Assembly (NCBI RefSeq): GCF_004762035.2
Contig: NZ_SIJK02000010.1
Location: 43,117-107,116, forward strand
Origin: Candidatus Chloroploca mongolica
GTDB lineage: Bacteria; Chloroflexota; Chloroflexia; Chloroflexales; Chloroflexaceae
Direction of reading: 5' to 3'
Length of the DNA: 64,000 nucleotides
The notes under the pieces were generated by a model, which worked only from the letters and a program-made list of their open reading frames with translations, made no database searches and had not been told where the DNA came from. Below, piece after piece: positions 19,177-53,927 of the stretch. Both the position numbers and the translations under genes were made by a program. How positions within the stretch are numbered: the stretch's first letter is position 1; every line of letters starts with the position of its first letter.

Positions 19177-19412
19177 GTTTGCCAACGTTGCATAGCTGCC
19201 AGACTTGCATCAGAGACTCCTGATTAGTCCCCTGAGCGGTCGCGGGAACTTCTTCGCTCGAAGGGTGTGTTACGTTGTGATGGCCGGAGTGCGACAGCCG
19301 TTATGCTGGCTGCCGGTGGTACGGAAGGTGATAGGGAAGTAGGGTTTTAGACGACGGTGTCTGGTGCCGTACGTCGGTCAACACTGCGTAGAGACGCAGA
19401 GGAGTAGTTTTG
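19177..19412 (+). promoter_or_regulatory. Long structured 5' leader of the RRM gene
   Basis: About 235 nt separate the predicted transcription start from the ATG and contain no convincing ORF. Small hairpins are visible, including CTGCGT-AGAG-ACGCAG (19384-19399), whose last base is the first G of the ribosome site GAGGAG. Long leaders of this sort control cold-shock and RNA-binding protein genes in other bacteria; here regulation is an inference. Confidence 0.45.
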
Positions 19413-19787
19413 ATGCTGGTCAAGCTGTTTGTTGGGAATCTGCCCTGGAGTGTCGGTGACGAAGATCTAGCGCAAGTCTTTGCACCCCACGGGGATGTGC
19501 AGAGCGCTCGTGTGATCACTGATCGCGATACGGGCCGCTCACGTGGGTTTGGGTTTGTTGAGATTGAAGTTGATGATGTCAATACCGTGATCCGGGCAAC
19601 TGATGGCCAGGAGTTGAATGGCCGTCCGATCCGGGTGAACGAGTCTGAGGATCGTGACCGTGGCAGCCGTGGCGGTGGCGGTGGCGGTGGCCGTGGTGGT
19701 TACGGCGGCGGCGGCGGCGGTGGTTACGGCGGTGGTGGTGGCGGCGGCGGCCGTGGCGGCCGTGGTGGCTATGGCGACCGTTATTAG
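19413..19787 (+). CDS. RRM-type RNA-binding protein with Gly-rich tail
   Basis: One RNA recognition motif fills residues 1-80, with RNP2 (LFVGNL) and RNP1 (RGFGFVEI) both intact. A 40-residue tail of Gly, Arg and Tyr (GGRGGYGG type) follows, as in cyanobacterial and plant glycine-rich RNA-binding proteins that act as RNA chaperones in cold stress. ATG 19413 has GAGGAG 8 nt upstream; the TTG just before it is not needed. It is monocistronic, with its own long leader and a strong terminator, and is likely an abundant cytoplasmic protein. Confidence 0.93.
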   Translation: MLVKLFVGNLPWSVGDEDLAQVFAPHGDVQSARVITDRDTGRSRGFGFVEIEVDDVNTVIRATDGQELNGRPIRVNESEDRDRGSRGGGGGGGRGGYGGGGGGGYGGGGGGGGRGGRGGYGDRY

Positions 19788-23730: not shown

Positions 23731-25902
23731 ATGAAACCTCCTGCACGGGGACGCCCCTCTCAACCAGGCCGTGGTCGCGGGCCTGTTCGCTGGACGGTAT
23801 GGGAGATCAGCCTGATTGTCCTCAGCATTGTGATGATCGCCTTTCCGCTCTACGCCGAAGCGACGCGCCTTGTTTTCGCGCCGGTTGCTCCGGCGCAGGA
23901 GAATCCTACGGCGACGCCTGATCTTGCGTTTCCGCCTACGAATACGCCGCTACCACCACCAACTGAGACACCACTGCCTGATTTGACACCAACCACTGAT
24001 CCGATTTCTCCTCAGCCTTCACCTTCGGGTACGGGGACAAATCAAGGGCCAACCCTGACGCCGACTAATACTCCGTTGGCCGGGACACCCAGTGCCACAA
24101 GTACAGGTGAACCTGCTACGCCAACGACTGAGCCAGGGTCGCCGACGCCAACGGCTGAGCCAGGGTCGCCGACGCCAACGGCTGAGCCAGGGTCGCCGAC
24201 GCCAACGGCTGAGCCAGGGTCGCCGACGGCCACGGCTGAGCCAGGGTCGCCGACGCCAACGGCTGAGCCAGTTTCACCAACAGCAACCTTTACGGTGATT
24301 CCTACGGTGGTGCCGAGTCCCACCAGTGACGTGCCGCCAACCGGCATCACTATTTTCAAGATTGCCTCATCGTCGCAGGTTGCCCAGGGGCAACAGTTCA
24401 GTTACAACATCTCGGTTGTTTCGACGAGCACGGCGAATCAGGCGGTACGGTTGCAAGACAATCTTGATGCCAACCTTGAATTCCTCGGGCTTGATGCTCG
24501 TGGTGGTTCATGTAGCGGCGGTCAGACGATTGTCTGTGATCTGACGGTGAACAGTGGCAACTCTGCGTCGATCACTTTGCAAGTGCGGGTTCGCCCGAGT
24601 GCTGCGGTTGGGACGACGATTAACAATGTTGCGACCGCACCGGGTGCCGAGACAAGTGGGGCTTCGATCAGGGTTCTTGGAGGCACGCCTGGGCCTTCGA
24701 CTACCCCTGTTGGCCCGTCGCCTACAGCGGCCTATCCTTTCCCGACGACGCCTGTAGTGCCGTCGCCCACGACGCCCGTTGGTCCGTCGCCCACGACGCC
24801 CGTTGGTCCGTCGCCTACGACGCCATTGCTGCCTTCACCGACCACGCCTCCAGTGGTTGTGCCCACCACGCCTCCAGGCGTTGATCCGACGGTACCGCCG
24901 GTCGTTGTTCCGCCTGCTGGTGAACCTGCGCCACCAGCCACGTCATTGCCGATAGCCCCGCCGGCTCCGCCAACACCTCAGCCTGCCGTGCCAACCGAGC
25001 CGCCAACGCCGGCCCCACCTCCACCTGGCCCGACGGTGATCCGCCCAACGGCGGCACCACGACCACCTTCTGGTGGGGGGAGTACCGGGGGAAGCAGTGC
25101 TGCGACAAGCACGCCCGTTCAAGTCACCGCCACTACTGCGGTGACTCCTTCGCCAGGGCTTGGGGGAAACCAGACAGGAAGCGATGTCTTCTTCCGCATG
25201 GCAAGTGACTGGGGGAGTGCTTATCCTGGTCAGATCATCAATTACACCCTGGTTGTGCGCAATACGCGCTCTGCTGCTGCAGGAGGTGCCAACGATCTGC
25301 GAACGGTGAACATGCGGACGCTCTTGCCAAGCAATCTTGAAGTGCTTGGCGCACGGGCCGACCGCGGCACTGATCCGACCATCACCGGGAACGAAATCCG
25401 TCATGCGGTCGAAGTGCTGCAACCCGGTGAGAGTGTCGAACTCACCATCAATACCCGCATCAAGACGAGCGTCACGGCTGGTACGTTGCTGGTGGCGCAG
25501 GGGCAACTCACCTATGCCGGACGACCGCAAGAGCTCTTCTCGAACATTGTTTCGGTGCAGGTTGTTGGCAGCACGCCACCGACGGTTGGACCGACCTTTA
25601 CGCCAACAGTTGATCCAACCAGTACCCCCGATCCGGGGCCATCGCCTGTCCCACCAGGGGCCACCGCCGTGCCAACCAGCACGCCAGCTCCGGGTGCGCC
25701 ATCGCCTACACCGGTCACGACCCCGCCAGCAGGTGGTCAACCCGATCCGCAGCCAACATCTGAACCAGGCGGCAAACCCCCAGGTGAGACCTCGCCGTTG
25801 CCTGAAACAAGCACGGGTGTCCCGCTGATTGGGGTGCTGATGCTTGGGCTGACCCTATTAACCAGGACATGGCGTTTGCACCGAGCCAAAGAACGTATTT
25901 AA
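23731..25902 (+). CDS. Sortase-anchored Thr/Pro-rich surface protein with two DUF11 domains
   Basis: The 723-aa product has an N-terminal hydrophobic segment (residues 25-50) and a Thr/Pro-rich stalk with six copies of a 9-residue repeat (TAEPGSPTP). A DUF11-like beta domain (about 205-310) follows, then a second Pro-rich stalk with VGPSPTTP repeats and a second DUF11-like domain (about 485-610). The C-terminus is LPETS, a hydrophobic stretch and RLHRAKERI, a sorting signal in which Ser replaces the usual Gly. ATG 23731 has GAGGAG 5 nt upstream. It was probably anchored by the sortase encoded just before it and is likely O-glycosylated on the Thr-rich stalks, which is inference. Confidence 0.87.
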   Translation: MKPPARGRPSQPGRGRGPVRWTVWEISLIVLSIVMIAFPLYAEATRLVFAPVAPAQENPTATPDLAFPPTNTPLPPPTETPLPDLTPTTDPISPQPSPSGTGTNQGPTLTPTNTPLAGTPSATSTGEPATPTTEPGSPTPTAEPGSPTPTAEPGSPTPTAEPGSPTATAEPGSPTPTAEPVSPTATFTVIPTVVPSPTSDVPPTGITIFKIASSSQVAQGQQFSYNISVVSTSTANQAVRLQDNLDANLEFLGLDARGGSCSGGQTIVCDLTVNSGNSASITLQVRVRPSAAVGTTINNVATAPGAETSGASIRVLGGTPGPSTTPVGPSPTAAYPFPTTPVVPSPTTPVGPSPTTPVGPSPTTPLLPSPTTPPVVVPTTPPGVDPTVPPVVVPPAGEPAPPATSLPIAPPAPPTPQPAVPTEPPTPAPPPPGPTVIRPTAAPRPPSGGGSTGGSSAATSTPVQVTATTAVTPSPGLGGNQTGSDVFFRMASDWGSAYPGQIINYTLVVRNTRSAAAGGANDLRTVNMRTLLPSNLEVLGARADRGTDPTITGNEIRHAVEVLQPGESVELTINTRIKTSVTAGTLLVAQGQLTYAGRPQELFSNIVSVQVVGSTPPTVGPTFTPTVDPTSTPDPGPSPVPPGATAVPTSTPAPGAPSPTPVTTPPAGGQPDPQPTSEPGGKPPGETSPLPETSTGVPLIGVLMLGLTLLTRTWRLHRAKERI
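24124..24285 (+). repeat. Six tandem 27-bp coding repeats
   Basis: Each unit encodes T(A/T)EPGSPT(P/A). The middle units are identical at the DNA level, so the number of copies can change by slippage without breaking the frame. Confidence 0.9.
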
Positions 25903-48624: not shown

Positions 48625-48746
48625 CATTGCGAACGAACCAGAAAGAGCAATGTCTCTGTGTGCTCGCCTGAGCGCCCCGGCGTGAGGCCGCGGCGATGGC
48701 CAGCACGTTCTTGACGTGACCTGAAAAGGTCGGAAGAAGGTGTGTT

Positions 48747-51197
48747 TTGGGTGCAGAACGTCTGCAAAAAGTGCTGGCGGGTGCTGGCATTGCTTCGCGT
48801 CGCGATAGCGAAGGGTTGATTGCTGCCGGACGGGTGACCGTTAATGGTCGTGTAGTGCAAGAGCCAGGTTTGAGGGTTGATCCAGAACAGGATGTGATTA
48901 TGCTTGATGGCGAGCCGGTACGGCAGCCCGGTCGTCGTACGTATGTGTTGTTACATAAACCGGTCGGGGTGGTTTCAACCGTGGAAGACCCCCACGGTCG
49001 CCCGACGGTAATCGATCTGGTGCAAGTGCCTGCACGGATCTTTCCAGTTGGCCGCCTTGATGTTGATAGTGAGGGGCTGTTATTATTGACTGATGATGGT
49101 GAACTAACCCATCATTTGACGCATCCCCGCTTTGAGGTTGAGAAAGAATATCGCGTTCTGCTTGATCGTCCCCTCGAGACCGTTGCCCTCCGCGATTGGC
49201 GGAATGGGTTGTTGCTTCAGGGCGAAATGACCGCTCCGGCCAAGGTCGCTCTCGCCGAAACAACCGAGGAAGGTGTCTGGTATTCTGTAGTGCTTCGTGA
49301 AGGCCGTAAACGTCAGATCCGTGAAACAGCAAAAACGCTGGGCTACGAGGTGCGACGCCTGATCCGTGTGCGCGAAGGTAAACTCACTCTTGGTACTTTG
49401 CCCATCCGTGAGTATCGTACCCTTACCGATGAAGAAATTGCCGAGTTGCGCACCCATGTGCCGCCGACATCATTTGCTGATGAGGCGCGTGCGGAAGATC
49501 GTTCGATGCACCGTGAGGCCGAGCATTCTGATGAGACCGGTTCATCGCGTCGTGCGGCTGCGGGGGTTGCGGCGGGTGCGGCGGGTGTGGTTGGCGTGAA
49601 GAAAGTTTCTGGCGATCGTGAAGATCGTGCCGCCAAACGGCATGACGATGATCGGACTTCGCCTCATGCTCGTCGCGATCAGCGCGATGCCCGCAGCTAT
49701 GGTGGCCCCGGACGTGACGATGAGCGCGGCGGCCGTGGGTACGAGCGGAGCGAGCGGAGCTACGGTGGCCCTGGGCGTGATGAGCGCGGCGGCCGTGGCG
49801 ATGAGCGTGGCTATGGTGCCGGGCGTGATGAGCGTGGTGGCCGTGGGTACGAGCGCAGTGAGCGGAGCTACGGTGGCCCTGGACGCGGCGATGAGCGCGG
49901 CGGACGCGGCGATGAGCGTGGCTATGGTGCCGGGCGTGACGAGCGTGGCGGTCGTGGGTACGAGCGGAGTGAGCGCAGCTACGGTGGCCCCGGACGCGGC
50001 GATGAGCGGAGCAACGCCCCCGGGCGTGACGAGCGTGGCGGTCGTGGGTACGAGCGGAGTGAGCGCAGCTACGGTGGCCCCGGACGCGGCGATGAGCGGA
50101 GCAACGCCCCCGGGCGTGACGAGCGCGGCGGTCGTGGGTACGAGCGGAGTGAGCGGAGCTATGGTGGCCCCGGACGCGGCGATGAGCGGAGCAACGCCCC
50201 CGGGCGTGACGAGCGCGGCGGTCGTGGGTACGAGCGCAGCGAGCGGAGCTACGGTGGCCCCGGACGTGACGAGCGTGGCGGACGCGGCGAGGAGCGTGGC
50301 GGACGCGGCGAGGAGCGTGGCGGACGGAGTTACGGTGGCCCGGGACGTGACGAACCCGGCGGACGCAGTTATGGTGCTGGCCCGGGGCGTGATGAGCGCG
50401 GCGGACGCGGCGAGGAGCGTGGCGGACGGAGTTACGGTGGCCCGGGACGTGACGAACCCGGCGGACGCAGTTATGGTGCTGGCCCGGGGCGTGATGAGCG
50501 CGGCGGACGCGGCGAGGAGCGCGGCGGACGCAGTTACGGTGGCCCGGGGCGTGATGAGCGTGGCGGACGCAGTTATGGTGCTGGCCCGGGGCGTGACGAG
50601 CGCGGCGGACGCGGTGACGAGCGCGGCGGACGCAGTTACGGTGGCCCGGGACGTGACGAGCGCGGCGGACGCGGTGACGAGCGCGGCTACGGTGCCGGGC
50701 GTGATGAGCGTGGTGGCCGTGGGTACGAGCGGAGCGAGCGCAGTTATGGTGGCCCGGGACGTGACGAGCGCGGCGGACGCGGCGAGGAGCGCGGCGGACG
50801 CAGTTACGGTGCCGGGCGTGATGAGCGTGGTGGCCGTGGATACGAGCGGAGTGAGCGGAGCTACGGTGGCCCGGGACGGAACGAGCGCGGTGCCTCCGCG
50901 CCAAACGAGCCTCGTCCCGAGTTGCGTGGTAACGAGCGGAAGCAGGCATATAGTGAGCGTACGGAGAACCTTGAACGAGCAACCGTCTCGTCAGGTGAAC
51001 AACACGCGCCTCAACAATCCCGGCAAGATACACCCGAGGTTCCAGCACAGCAGCAGGATCGATCGTTGCAACAGGATAATCAGCGTGAGAGCCGGAAACC
51101 TGTACGTAGCGCCCGACCTGTTACCAGGCGAGGCCGGGGCAGCTTCCAGATGCGACCCGGTGGACGTCCCAACTTCGACCTTCACCCGAAAAAATAA
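48747..51197 (+). CDS. RsuA/RluB-family pseudouridine synthase with giant Arg/Gly repeat tail
   Basis: Residues 1-240 are an rRNA pseudouridine synthase: an S4 RNA-binding domain (RLQKVLAGAGIASRRDSEGLI) and the catalytic GRLDVDSEGLLLLT with Asp near residue 105. EGRKRQIRETAKTLGYEVRRLIRV is also present. Residues about 310-720 are repeats of Gly, Arg, Glu, Asp, Ser and Tyr such as DERGGRGYERSERSYGGPGR. The end is basic and Gln-rich (PVTRRGRGSFQMRPGGRP). The TTG at 48747 follows GAAGAAGG. At 816 aa it is over three times the usual ~250 aa. The tail looks disordered and RNA-binding, comparable with RGG boxes. Confidence 0.9.
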   Translation: MGAERLQKVLAGAGIASRRDSEGLIAAGRVTVNGRVVQEPGLRVDPEQDVIMLDGEPVRQPGRRTYVLLHKPVGVVSTVEDPHGRPTVIDLVQVPARIFPVGRLDVDSEGLLLLTDDGELTHHLTHPRFEVEKEYRVLLDRPLETVALRDWRNGLLLQGEMTAPAKVALAETTEEGVWYSVVLREGRKRQIRETAKTLGYEVRRLIRVREGKLTLGTLPIREYRTLTDEEIAELRTHVPPTSFADEARAEDRSMHREAEHSDETGSSRRAAAGVAAGAAGVVGVKKVSGDREDRAAKRHDDDRTSPHARRDQRDARSYGGPGRDDERGGRGYERSERSYGGPGRDERGGRGDERGYGAGRDERGGRGYERSERSYGGPGRGDERGGRGDERGYGAGRDERGGRGYERSERSYGGPGRGDERSNAPGRDERGGRGYERSERSYGGPGRGDERSNAPGRDERGGRGYERSERSYGGPGRGDERSNAPGRDERGGRGYERSERSYGGPGRDERGGRGEERGGRGEERGGRSYGGPGRDEPGGRSYGAGPGRDERGGRGEERGGRSYGGPGRDEPGGRSYGAGPGRDERGGRGEERGGRSYGGPGRDERGGRSYGAGPGRDERGGRGDERGGRSYGGPGRDERGGRGDERGYGAGRDERGGRGYERSERSYGGPGRDERGGRGEERGGRSYGAGRDERGGRGYERSERSYGGPGRNERGASAPNEPRPELRGNERKQAYSERTENLERATVSSGEQHAPQQSRQDTPEVPAQQQDRSLQQDNQRESRKPVRSARPVTRRGRGSFQMRPGGRPNFDLHPKK
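49693..50889 (+). repeat. Tandem repeat array inside the pseudouridine synthase gene
   Basis: Short units (GRDERGGRG, YERSERSYGGP) are arranged in larger blocks. A 90-bp block occurs at least three times with exact 90-bp period (49981, 50071, 50161), and a 102-bp block repeats at 50329 and 50431. The repeats keep the frame, so block gain or loss would lengthen or shorten the tail without a frameshift. Confidence 0.9.
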
Positions 51198-51277
51198 GTT
51201 TACGACGGTGTAAGCCTGAAGCTAGCGCACCTTGTGCTACACTTATGATGGTGTCAACAGACTGAAAGGAGTGGTCA

Positions 51278-51717: not shown

Positions 51718-51777
51718 GAAGGACAAAAAGAAAGGCTGCCGAGACGATCATCTCGGCAGCCTTTCTTTTTGTCCTTC
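51718..51777. terminator. Very long bidirectional terminator
   Basis: Perfect 27-bp arms (51718-51744 and 51751-51777) with a 6-nt loop and A/T tracts. It separates the convergent CBS and VanW genes, and its last base is the first base of the VanW stop codon. Confidence 0.88.
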
Positions 51778-53927
51778 TATCCTTCGGGCAGGGGAGTTGG
51801 TTCTGGTGCTGGCGGAGGTTCTGGCGCTGGCGGAGGTTCTGGTGCCGGTTCCGGTGCCGGTTCTAGTGGTGGGGGAACCTCTTCGCCCGGCGGCGGTGGG
51901 GGAACCTCCTCGGGCTCAGGCGTTGGCGTCTCGCGTGGGAGCGGACGACCATCCGGGCCAAGATCGGCAGGATTGGCTTCAAAAATATTAGGCCAGGGCC
52001 GGAACTTCGTTTCAAACGTACGGCGCTCAAGGGTCTCGCCATCGCGCTCGATAATGCGGGTAAAGTTAATCGTCATGCCACCGCGTGCGGTATCGCTCTG
52101 GCGCATGCGGCCCCGTGGTTGTTCAGGTACCGCAACATAGACAGGCTCGGTTGGGGCTGGCAGGCGATCCGTAATTTCGGGGCCAGCCATACGCACCGTG
52201 CGACCGTCATCGGTGCCGTAAATACGCACCTCGGCCAGCGAGCGGCTCGTATCAACATTGGTCTGGATCAAGATCCAGTTCCCTGTATCGTTAATGAACT
52301 TGAAATCGAGGGCACCGGTGAAGATCGCGGCATCCATCCCTGGTCCATTGCCATACTCACCGAAGCCGTATTTGTCATACCAGCTAATATAGAACGAATG
52401 GCCCCAGCGCTCGGTAATGGGCAAGCCGGCCCAGAAGGCGGCCCGGAACATCGTGGTCGAGTCCTGGCAGATACCGCCGCCCCATTCAAGTTGCGTACGA
52501 TTGCGGACAATCGCATAGCCTTCAACAAAACCATTCGAGGCATCAATACGCCCGATCGTCTTATTGAACGAGAACTCTTCATCAGGGGCGACCAGAACCC
52601 CATCGAGCAGACGCATCCCGGCCTGGATATTGGTAATGCGGTAGGCCGCCGAGCCACTGAAATCACTGCGTCCAACTGACAGCAACTCACGAATGCCCAG
52701 TTGTCCAAGATTAGCACCGGTCACTGGCGCGGCTGTTTCGCGCATCGGCAGGTTCAGATTGCGCTGCTCATCGGCCTTGAACAAGGCACTCGTGACCATT
52801 TCTTGCGCTACCACCGTATCAAGGCGCTGTCCACTCGTCCCTTCGCGGGTAATGCGCAGAGCGCCACCATTCCAGGCTACCCGCGGATAGCGGCCAAGCT
52901 TTTCGGTCGTCGCGCCAATCTGCTCGAGTGACGCCTTGATGAGATCCTGATCGAGGGAAACGACGAGCGTGTCACCTTCAGCCCCATTCACCCGTTCAAT
53001 GCGAATCAGGCGCGCAATATCTTCGCGTGACCAGACAAATGGTGTTGACCATCCTTCAACCGTCAAGGTCAAAGGTGCAGCGAGCAATGCATCAATAGTT
53101 GCCTGAGCCTCTTGCACCGCTACGTCACTCAAACTTGGCTGGAGCGTGCGTGTACGCAGGGCGATCATCTGGGGATCAAGGGCCTGGATTGCTGCGGTAA
53201 TCTCTTGCAGCGTATCTCCTACCAGTACCTGTTGACCGGTCGCTGAAGGTTCGGTCGCGAGGGTCGTTCCATTAAGGGTCAGGGTTGCATCAATGGCAGG
53301 TTGCTCAACCTCGGCGACGCGAGCAAGCAGGTATTCCTGCATCCTGGACTGATTCACCGTCACGTGGAGCGGCAGTTCCATACCTTGATCATAGATCGCC
53401 AGGATAGAGCGTACGTTGGTAAAAAGCCCTTGATCGCGGCCAAGTGCCATCGCCTCAGTAACGGCTCGTTCTGTCTCGAGGCGAACACCTAGTTCGGCCA
53501 TCGTAGGCATCCACGCCTGATCGCCATAGGTAAGCACCACAGGCTGGGCCAGGAACGAGGCAAACCGTGCTTGGATCACCTCTTCAGCCTCTGCGACAGT
53601 CAATTCACCGACCTGCACCCCACGAATGCTGACATTCGGATAGATGCGCCCGTCGTAGCTCTGATTCAAGAAATAAAGCCCGGTGCTCGTCCCAATAATG
53701 GTAAGCAACAAGACGCCTACCAGGGCTACGATGAGCATTCGGCCACGGCGACGGGGTGGTCGGGCTTTTGGCCGGGTTCTGGTTTCCGGCGCTGTCACCT
53801 GAGGGTCAGCCGACCAGTCGGCCCCCTCAGGAATGGCGGTCATACGATACAACTGATCCTGGCCATCACCAGTTGTTGAACGCGAGGATGAAGGAAAATC
53901 AACCGACACCAAAACCTCCTGAGCCAT
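51777..53927 (-). CDS. VanW-family membrane protein with PG-binding-4-like domains
   Basis: This 716-aa protein has a cytoplasmic N-terminus (about 60 residues), one transmembrane helix (LIVALVGVLLLTIIGTSTGLYFL) and two extracytoplasmic PG-binding-4-like modules (YoaR-type). The VanW domain follows (EFSFNKTIGRIDASNGFVEG, WGGGICQDSTTMFRAAFWAGLP, ERWGHSFYISWYDKYG). It ends in a Glu/Pro-rich tail. VanW is found in vancomycin-resistance clusters of enterococci and, more widely, in peptidoglycan-related proteins; its biochemistry is unsettled. No resistance genes accompany it here. Confidence 0.92.
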   Translation of the reverse strand: MAQEVLVSVDFPSSSRSTTGDGQDQLYRMTAIPEGADWSADPQVTAPETRTRPKARPPRRRGRMLIVALVGVLLLTIIGTSTGLYFLNQSYDGRIYPNVSIRGVQVGELTVAEAEEVIQARFASFLAQPVVLTYGDQAWMPTMAELGVRLETERAVTEAMALGRDQGLFTNVRSILAIYDQGMELPLHVTVNQSRMQEYLLARVAEVEQPAIDATLTLNGTTLATEPSATGQQVLVGDTLQEITAAIQALDPQMIALRTRTLQPSLSDVAVQEAQATIDALLAAPLTLTVEGWSTPFVWSREDIARLIRIERVNGAEGDTLVVSLDQDLIKASLEQIGATTEKLGRYPRVAWNGGALRITREGTSGQRLDTVVAQEMVTSALFKADEQRNLNLPMRETAAPVTGANLGQLGIRELLSVGRSDFSGSAAYRITNIQAGMRLLDGVLVAPDEEFSFNKTIGRIDASNGFVEGYAIVRNRTQLEWGGGICQDSTTMFRAAFWAGLPITERWGHSFYISWYDKYGFGEYGNGPGMDAAIFTGALDFKFINDTGNWILIQTNVDTSRSLAEVRIYGTDDGRTVRMAGPEITDRLPAPTEPVYVAVPEQPRGRMRQSDTARGGMTINFTRIIERDGETLERRTFETKFRPWPNIFEANPADLGPDGRPLPRETPTPEPEEVPPPPPGEEVPPPLEPAPEPAPEPPPAPEPPPAPEPTPLPEG

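Follow-up and report, generated by a model that had tools for sequence, protein, structure and literature searches.

Disordered ends of RluB (PMC3919597) and Arg-rich low-complexity regions of bacteria (PMC6821194, a study whose main text does not contain the word 'pseudouridine') are already known. The last 40 residues of E. coli RluB are described as predicted to be disordered, poorly conserved and omitted from the stem-loop crystals, and the end of the homologous RluF as disordered with the isolated stem-loop (PMC3919597). Charged disordered domains of yeast Cbf5 and of other small nucleolar ribonucleoprotein (snoRNP) proteins are reported to promote accumulation near nascent rRNA, to aid modification and to compact the nucleolus under stress (PMC11528048), and in Rho of Bacteroides thetaiotaomicron the KE-rich part of the disordered region is reported to drive RNA-dependent condensation (PMC13269538). 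The artificial repeat protein (GRGDSPYS)n is reported to phase separate below a critical temperature, with 40- and 80-mers doing so on cooling, and its Tyr-to-Val form to be without such reversible behaviour (PMC10491311). Here we analyse a stretch of 64,000 nucleotides of Candidatus Chloroploca mongolica (contig NZ_SIJK02000010.1, positions 43,117 to 107,116; termed the window), in which an enzyme of the RsuA/RluB type carries a C-terminal tail of 567 residues with a large tandem-repeat array, and we show that related tails keep their make-up while their repeat sequences differ.

The tail shares with the E. coli RluB and RluF extensions the enzyme family and the character of a disordered, poorly conserved C-terminal extension, but the RluB extension has about 40 residues and a net charge of +0.23 (last 43 residues), compared to 567 repeat-built residues with a net charge of +0.04. 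The KKE/D domains of eukaryotic snoRNPs, as described for Cbf5, are likewise highly charged polyampholytes that extend an rRNA pseudouridine synthase at its N or C terminus; in contrast to the window tail with its Arg, aromatics and Gly, they are Lys-rich and act with a guide RNA and a nucleolus, and we take both to be unrelated by descent. As the nearest man-made look-alike, the resilin-like (GRGDSPYS)n has tandem repeats of Arg, Asp, Gly, Ser, Pro and Tyr with mixed charges, whereas the natural tails, which are known here by their composition, are more charged and contain more Glu. Rho of B. thetaiotaomicron is comparable in that it, too, is a conserved bacterial enzyme acting on RNA to which a long, charged and disordered region has been added, but it is a different enzyme from a different phylum, and its added region is described as containing Lys/Glu-rich and prion-like subdomains and conserved charge-dense motifs. 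The literature searched, with subscription papers mostly outside its scope, describes neither a repeat-built tail on an RsuA/RluB enzyme nor a role for one.

Catalytic core and repeat array of the window protein

The open reading frame (ORF) at 48747-51197 of the forward strand begins with TTG and encodes 816 aa, with residues 1-249 forming the core and residues 250-816 the tail. An earlier reading of this DNA from its letters (the sequence-only reading) had assigned the product to the RsuA/RluB enzymes with about 560 residues beyond the core, and both statements are supported by our data. Pfam reports S4 (6.9e-12) and PseudoU_synth_2 (4e-17), both above the gathering score, TIGR00093 matches with 2.4e-44 and 151 bits (cut-off 109.3), E. 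coli RluB is closest in sequence among solved structures (1.5e-38), and the closest fold found by Foldseek is the RluB-RNA complex 4lgt (E 1.9e-24, TMt 0.81). With the S4 domain preceding the catalytic domain, and with the motif and the fold of this group, the product is an RsuA/RluB/RluE/RluF pseudouridine synthase. The NCBIfam equivalog scores of 141.8 bits for RluF, 136.2 for RluB and 131.5 for RsuA lie far under the respective cut-offs of 318, 290 and 275. Residues G102-R103-L104-D105, Y135, R189 and R192 are invariant across 21 aligned homologues. For E. coli RluB, the catalytic Asp110 within a GRLD motif and the conserved Tyr140 and Arg194 are described as key residues (PMC3919597), to which, in our own reading of the alignment, the Asp of the window GRLD motif, Tyr135 and Arg189/Arg192 would correspond. 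The core is 99% identical to that of Khr17 and 97% identical to that of C. asiatica.

The tail is predicted to be disordered: in an AlphaFold model of residues 1-330, the predicted local distance difference test (pLDDT) score reaches 90 in 172 residues and lies below 50 at residues 242-249 and 251-328. It contains 23 RGG and 51 RG motifs and eight copies of GYERSERSYGGPGR. The coordinates given by the sequence-only reading, 49693-50889, correspond to the repeat array proper, and the DNA periods of 90 and 102 bp which it had noticed were recovered by Tandem Repeats Finder together with a 111-bp block. The window genome is a draft of 160 contigs, and the copy number of the array is given as assembled.

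We compared copy with copy at the codon level in 13 arrays, i.e. the window array and those of 12 relatives. All self-similar lags found in the window array are multiples of three, and the similarity is in frame throughout all 13 arrays. Of the differences between copies, 47-84% fall on third codon positions (62% for the window array; 33% expected), and codons with a single difference are synonymous in 68-85% of cases, compared to an expectation of 23-28% for all changes and 32-33% for transitions. Lag by lag, the synonymous counts in the window are 8/13 at lag 90 (p 0.03), 11/14 at lag 102 (p 0.0007), 9/10 at lag 111 (p 0.0004) and 2/3 at lag 60 (not significant), and in six relatives the single-lag excess reaches p values of 4e-5 to 3e-16. 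The dominance of third-position and synonymous changes between copies shows that the repeat peptide, beyond the DNA alone, is under selection.

Distribution, turnover and make-up of the tail

Core matches were obtained in 37/41 genomes of the window's taxonomic family and in 360/399 genomes of a phylum sample, together covering 55 genomes of the order (37 from the family search and 18 more from the phylum sample). Of these, 32 were read to a stop codon and 16 to a contig end, five were dropped and two were not fetched. The five dropped loci are L017 (N gap followed by another frame), L027 (tail entering unrelated sequence, by eye), L074 (core cut) and L078 and L079 (core frame-shifted); G010 and G029, in which the contig ends inside the core, were left out, L014 is a shorter reading of L080, and the first 110 aa past the L075 match were taken as core. 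The phylum-sample search gave no core match in the order genomes G035, G039, G165, G333, G345, G372 and G399, and the family search gave none in G001 and G016. Among the homologues read to stop, 30/32 have tails whose length varies widely, from 152 to 567 aa. The sample outside the order consisted mostly of best-scoring rows with some picked for long open frames, to which 13 more with frames >350 codons were added. Among the matches listed, 89/109 rows have frames that do not exceed 350 codons and cannot accommodate a tail of 150 aa, and the 20 larger frames, all of which were read, include a disordered tail >150 aa only in G195 and G387; disordered-looking tails >100 aa are present in G195 (228 aa), G387 (371 aa), G393 (115 aa) and G309 (104 aa). 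Long tails are thus order-wide yet rare elsewhere in the phylum among these matches. In a quick tree of the cores, the order rows form one clade (47 rows, Shimodaira-Hasegawa-like approximate likelihood ratio test (SH-aLRT) 96), and tail state (at least 100 aa) changes at least six times, a count from which gain and loss are indistinguishable (41 rows long, 32 short, nine uncounted).

Two further observations concern the region behind the core. In G381 (L102, 1-1455) an RsuA/RluB-type synthase continues in the same frame into what by eye resembles a cytidylate kinase domain, which takes the place of a disordered tail. An Arg-rich RRLRxI/V motif stands at the core-tail junction of L066, L081, L083, L059 and L060, which represent two families of the order, and in a looser form (RRQVRRI) in L069; by eye, the motif is absent from the window's own genus.

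The tail is restricted to one pseudouridine synthase paralogue in the five genomes compared. PF00849 has 16 places there, and the tail is present on 5/5 RluB-type ones; of the other 11, ten have frames of 300-348 codons and one, L204, was read and is without it. L204 (G135; 565 codons) consists of an RluA-type pseudouridine synthase domain followed in frame by a methyltransferase-like stretch (by eye). SpoU methylases account for 20 places, 19 of them with frames of 239-337 codons; the extra part of the remaining one, L226 (458 codons), is N-terminal and non-repetitive (by eye).

Array length changes fast. We compared tail flanks and array length in six genomes with near-fixed tail flanks, which we take to be Herpetosiphon-like. 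Their arrays measure 189-330 aa, and the flanks on both sides are 97-100% identical in pairs comparable at equal length. L068 and L069 have identical cores and N-terminal flanks with arrays of 189 and 272 aa, respectively, showing that array length has recently changed, as the recent expansion proposed from the sequence had implied. In favour of an assembly or gene-calling artefact, contigs end inside the tail in 13/36 other family genomes with a match (hand count), compared to the 2.4-4.0 that contig numbers would predict. This explanation is rejected and so unlikely as to be negligible, because the single-contig relatives G006, G007 and G009 carry stop-terminated repeat tails of 327, 289 and 184 aa; the frame is kept throughout the arrays and the third-position bias also speaks against it. 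What was found is neither an artefact nor a tail of fixed length with a described role: lengths vary, and no role appears in the literature searched. The tail breaks short-read assemblies, and databases therefore under-record such tails, which is a warning for surveys relying on them.

The repeat units are unlike between genera, i.e. DERGGRGYERSERSYGGPGR in the window, EFEREPRARRDSGERGR in G007, RRDERGGGYRERREERGANGPRDF in G186, RREGGGFGERGP in G135, DFGDRPQRSFGDRPQRDERPR in G283 and GDRPSFGDRSGPPR in G382. We determined the composition of 44 tails of at least 50 aa. Median values are 24% Arg (17-33), 1% Lys (0-7), 18.5% Asp plus Glu, 5% aromatics (0-9) and 3% I/L/V/M, with a median net charge per residue of +0.07 (0.01-0.13). 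A charged fraction of 0.35 marks the limit for a strong polyampholyte, and 40/44 tails exceed it while having a small positive net charge. The window tail had been called strongly charged, which holds for its charged fraction of 0.42 but not for its net charge, which at +0.04 per residue is almost neutral. The share of Arg over Lys is higher in the tail than in the protein's own core (0.95 vs 0.81 in the window), the exception being L030 (0.70 in the tail vs 0.81 in the core). For 25 of the 44 tails we calculated kappa as an approximation (approximate maximum, eight shuffles per tail). It lies under the shuffle mean in 25/25 tails (median 0.086, range 0.04-0.16, shuffle means 0.14-0.18; window 0.057), showing that positive and negative charges alternate closely. 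The conserved property is a slightly positive polyampholyte favouring Arg over Lys, in which the charges are well mixed and, for most tails, aromatics stand at intervals.

These data bear on the proposal of the sequence-only reading, according to which the tail is a classical RGG/RG RNA-binding (RNA-chaperone) tail. The RGG and RG counts of the window and the 10-21 RGG motifs in L004, L067 (G097), L018 (G032) and L083 (G186) agree with it, as does the enrichment of Arg and Gly in low-complexity regions of prokaryotic RNA-binding proteins reported in PMC6821194. Against it, RGG is absent from 26/44 orthologous tails and is thus not kept among orthologues, Asp and Glu nearly balance Arg throughout, and the net charge is not clearly positive, the window value being unlike that of polycationic RGG/GAR domains. 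Because RGG is lineage-specific, the label of an RGG-type RNA binder is too narrow, and we consider a classical RGG/RG tail unlikely.

A possible tether for the enzyme, and rival explanations

We tentatively favour a model, to which we give slightly less than even confidence, according to which the tail is a soluble, weak, multivalent tether that would raise the local concentration of the enzyme at nascent 23S rRNA or at pre-50S particles, with condensation as a possible means. In this model, a long disordered tail on a normal rRNA pseudouridine synthase would be built and rebuilt by in-frame tandem duplication, and selection would act on its physical chemistry, leaving sequence and copy number free to vary. 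The selected chemistry would comprise Arg instead of Lys, alternating with Asp/Glu, spacers of Gly/Pro/Ser, few aliphatics and, in the majority of tails, aromatics at intervals of roughly 7-20 residues. Many weak contacts of Arg and aromatics with rRNA, pre-50S particles and other tails might keep the enzyme close to a substrate that exists only briefly during assembly, possibly in clusters or condensates. We infer that the tail would bind pre-ribosomes and might self-associate. That relatives keep the make-up of the tail while rewriting its sequence suggests a function for the make-up as such. For RluB, the cryo-EM entry 9cl9 ('WT 12C IM fraction, B-b3 with RluB bound') is represented by 278 residues of the RluB chain in the fold library, a residue count hinting that the RluB end can become ordered on pre-50S.

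Several observations weigh against the tether. An almost neutral net charge would make for a weak RNA tether, kappa lies mostly under the 0.1-0.4 range which PMC11528048 ties to electrostatic self-association, and aromatics are scarce in L020 (1%), L028 (2%) and L031 (2%). Within the evidence for selection, the synonymous excess in the window is only modest when one lag is considered at a time, synonymy was classed for codons with a single difference, and the comparisons within an array are non-independent. Two family members among the 32 homologues read to stop are tail-less (G038, 4 aa; G017, 6 aa), and the tail is hence dispensable or replaceable. In E. coli, adding RluB back to a strain without ten rRNA modification enzymes is reported to have had no significant effect on growth (PMC11194073). 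Work on Arg-rich and Tyr-rich chains reports that cation-pi contacts may not dominate (PMC13339138). As for self-association of the KKE/D kind, Cbf5 has a reported kappa of 0.1-0.4 (PMC11528048), compared to approximate values of 0.057 for the window and 0.086 for the median of the 25 tails; these charges are not block-like, which speaks against this mode.

The tail might also reflect tolerated expansion, in which slippage-prone repeats lengthen a naturally disordered end and selection does nothing but purge aggregation-prone or toxic variants, leaving a harmless soluble bristle. Rapid array turnover and the tail-less relatives are in line with this, near-neutral and well-mixed charges would be expected of a soluble inert coil, and short, poorly conserved tails are described as usual in RluB (PMC3919597). 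Yet long tails persist within the order while being rare elsewhere among the phylum matches listed, the differences among copies are biased toward third positions and synonymy, and Arg is kept while Lys and aliphatics are avoided; we regard tolerated expansion as somewhat unlikely. An explanation we hold to be improbable is a scaffold for protein partners, in which the repeats and the conserved short ends would dock ribosome-assembly or RNA-decay proteins. The conserved non-repeat flanks of the Herpetosiphon-like pairs would suit a scaffold, and so would the Ala/Gly segment and the C-terminal motif common to several genera (by eye); by eye, however, different families of the order do not share the flanks, and between genera the array sequence is not conserved. 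No partner was identified. When the window's genome was searched with the array, nothing but the array itself matched at E 1 or better, and L179, the top-scoring DEAD-box helicase and the one read of 29 DEAD matches, is without such a tail. On these grounds, other tailed RNA proteins of the same genome were rejected as partners.

Arrays resembling the tail also occur in Bacteroidota, in which family members are present in 99/99 genomes. Long frames were read at seven loci, with L167 and L171-L173 left out, and N-terminal arrays of like make-up were found at five of them (L116-L118, L168 and L170). In three Pontibacter genomes, N-terminal arrays of 340-383 aa with GERRSFGGDRERKPYGDRRE-like units stand on an enzyme of the RsuA/RluB family, with charged fractions of 0.56-0.58, net charges of +0.05 to +0.06 and kappa values of 0.045-0.047. 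L168 and L170 are alike but richer in Lys, and L169 and L119 fit less well. Overall, these RluB-type arrays share with the window tail repeats of Arg/Lys, Asp/Glu, Gly and Phe/Tyr, a net charge of +0.05 to +0.09 and a kappa of 0.04-0.07, and they differ from it by their position at the opposite terminus and, in some cases, by much Lys. Since they lie at the other terminus and in another phylum, we infer an independent origin. The literature searched contains no account of N-terminal repeat extensions on RluB-type enzymes of Bacteroidota.

Taken further, the tether model might mean that a natural condensate scaffold of the resilin-like kind has evolved repeatedly in bacteria, at one end or the other of a single 23S rRNA pseudouridine synthase. 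Conserved in composition and free in sequence, this polymer would gather the enzyme with pre-50S particles and would be the bacterial equivalent, in function, of the disordered nucleolar domains that the rRNA pseudouridine synthase of eukaryotes carries; we consider this broader idea rather unlikely. The tails amount to a natural experiment that reveals which properties of a disordered region are visible to selection: within one order, repeats have been replaced many times while make-up, charge balance and charge mixing stayed constant, and in a second phylum some members have reached a like make-up on this kind of enzyme at its opposite end. Culturable bacteria thereby allow a test of whether a disordered tether is required by enzymes that modify rRNA.

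Feature coordinates and other repeats of the window

Features of the pseudouridine synthase gene, in window coordinates
Feature	Position	Strand	Remarks
Shine-Dalgarno-like GGAAGAAGG	48732..48740	+	six bases upstream of TTG; read from sequence
Catalytic core, residues 1-249, S4 and PseudoU_synth_2	48747..49493	+	Pfam, TIGR00093, best PDB match RluB
C-terminal tail, residues 250-816, 567 aa, predicted disordered	49494..51194	+	stop codon 51195-51197
Ala/Gly-rich segment AAAGVAAGAAGVVGVKK between core and array	49554..49604	+	hydropathy peak 1.23
Repeat array, DERGGRGYERSERSYGGPGR-like units, about 398 aa (residues 317-714)	49695..50888	+	
111-bp period block, 2.6 copies, 91% matches	49719..50008	+	Tandem Repeats Finder
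90-bp period block, 4.1 copies, 95% matches	49901..50266	+	Tandem Repeats Finder
102-bp period block, 4.7 copies, 89% matches	50292..50780	+	Tandem Repeats Finder
C-terminal motif RRGRGSFQMRPGGRPNFDLHPKK	51126..51194	+	similar ends in L010, L012, L018 and L080 (by eye)

Segments like the Ala/Gly-rich one are present in several genera of the family (by eye). A role as membrane anchor is unsupported, as the usual transmembrane hydropathy limit is 1.6 and the peak in ten relatives is at most 1.43. Two long frames overlap the array, one of 541 aa at 49423-51048 on the reverse strand and one of 531 aa at 49618-51213 in another frame of the forward strand. They are probably by-products of biased codon use, because the copies differ mainly at third positions of the main frame.

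Elsewhere in the window, an RNA recognition motif (RRM) protein of 125 aa with a Gly/Arg/Tyr-rich tail is encoded at 19410-19787, where the sequence-only reading had placed a GGRGG-tailed RRM protein at 19413. The window genome has four RRM genes and G007 two, and there are none in G135 and G186. Further repeats with periods divisible by three are a 27-bp tandem repeat at 24118-24271 (5.7 copies, 96%) and units of 24/48 bp at 24742-24848, and a large protein encoded at 51777-53927 on the reverse strand ends in a Pro/Glu/Ala repeat tail (PEPAPEPPPAPEP).

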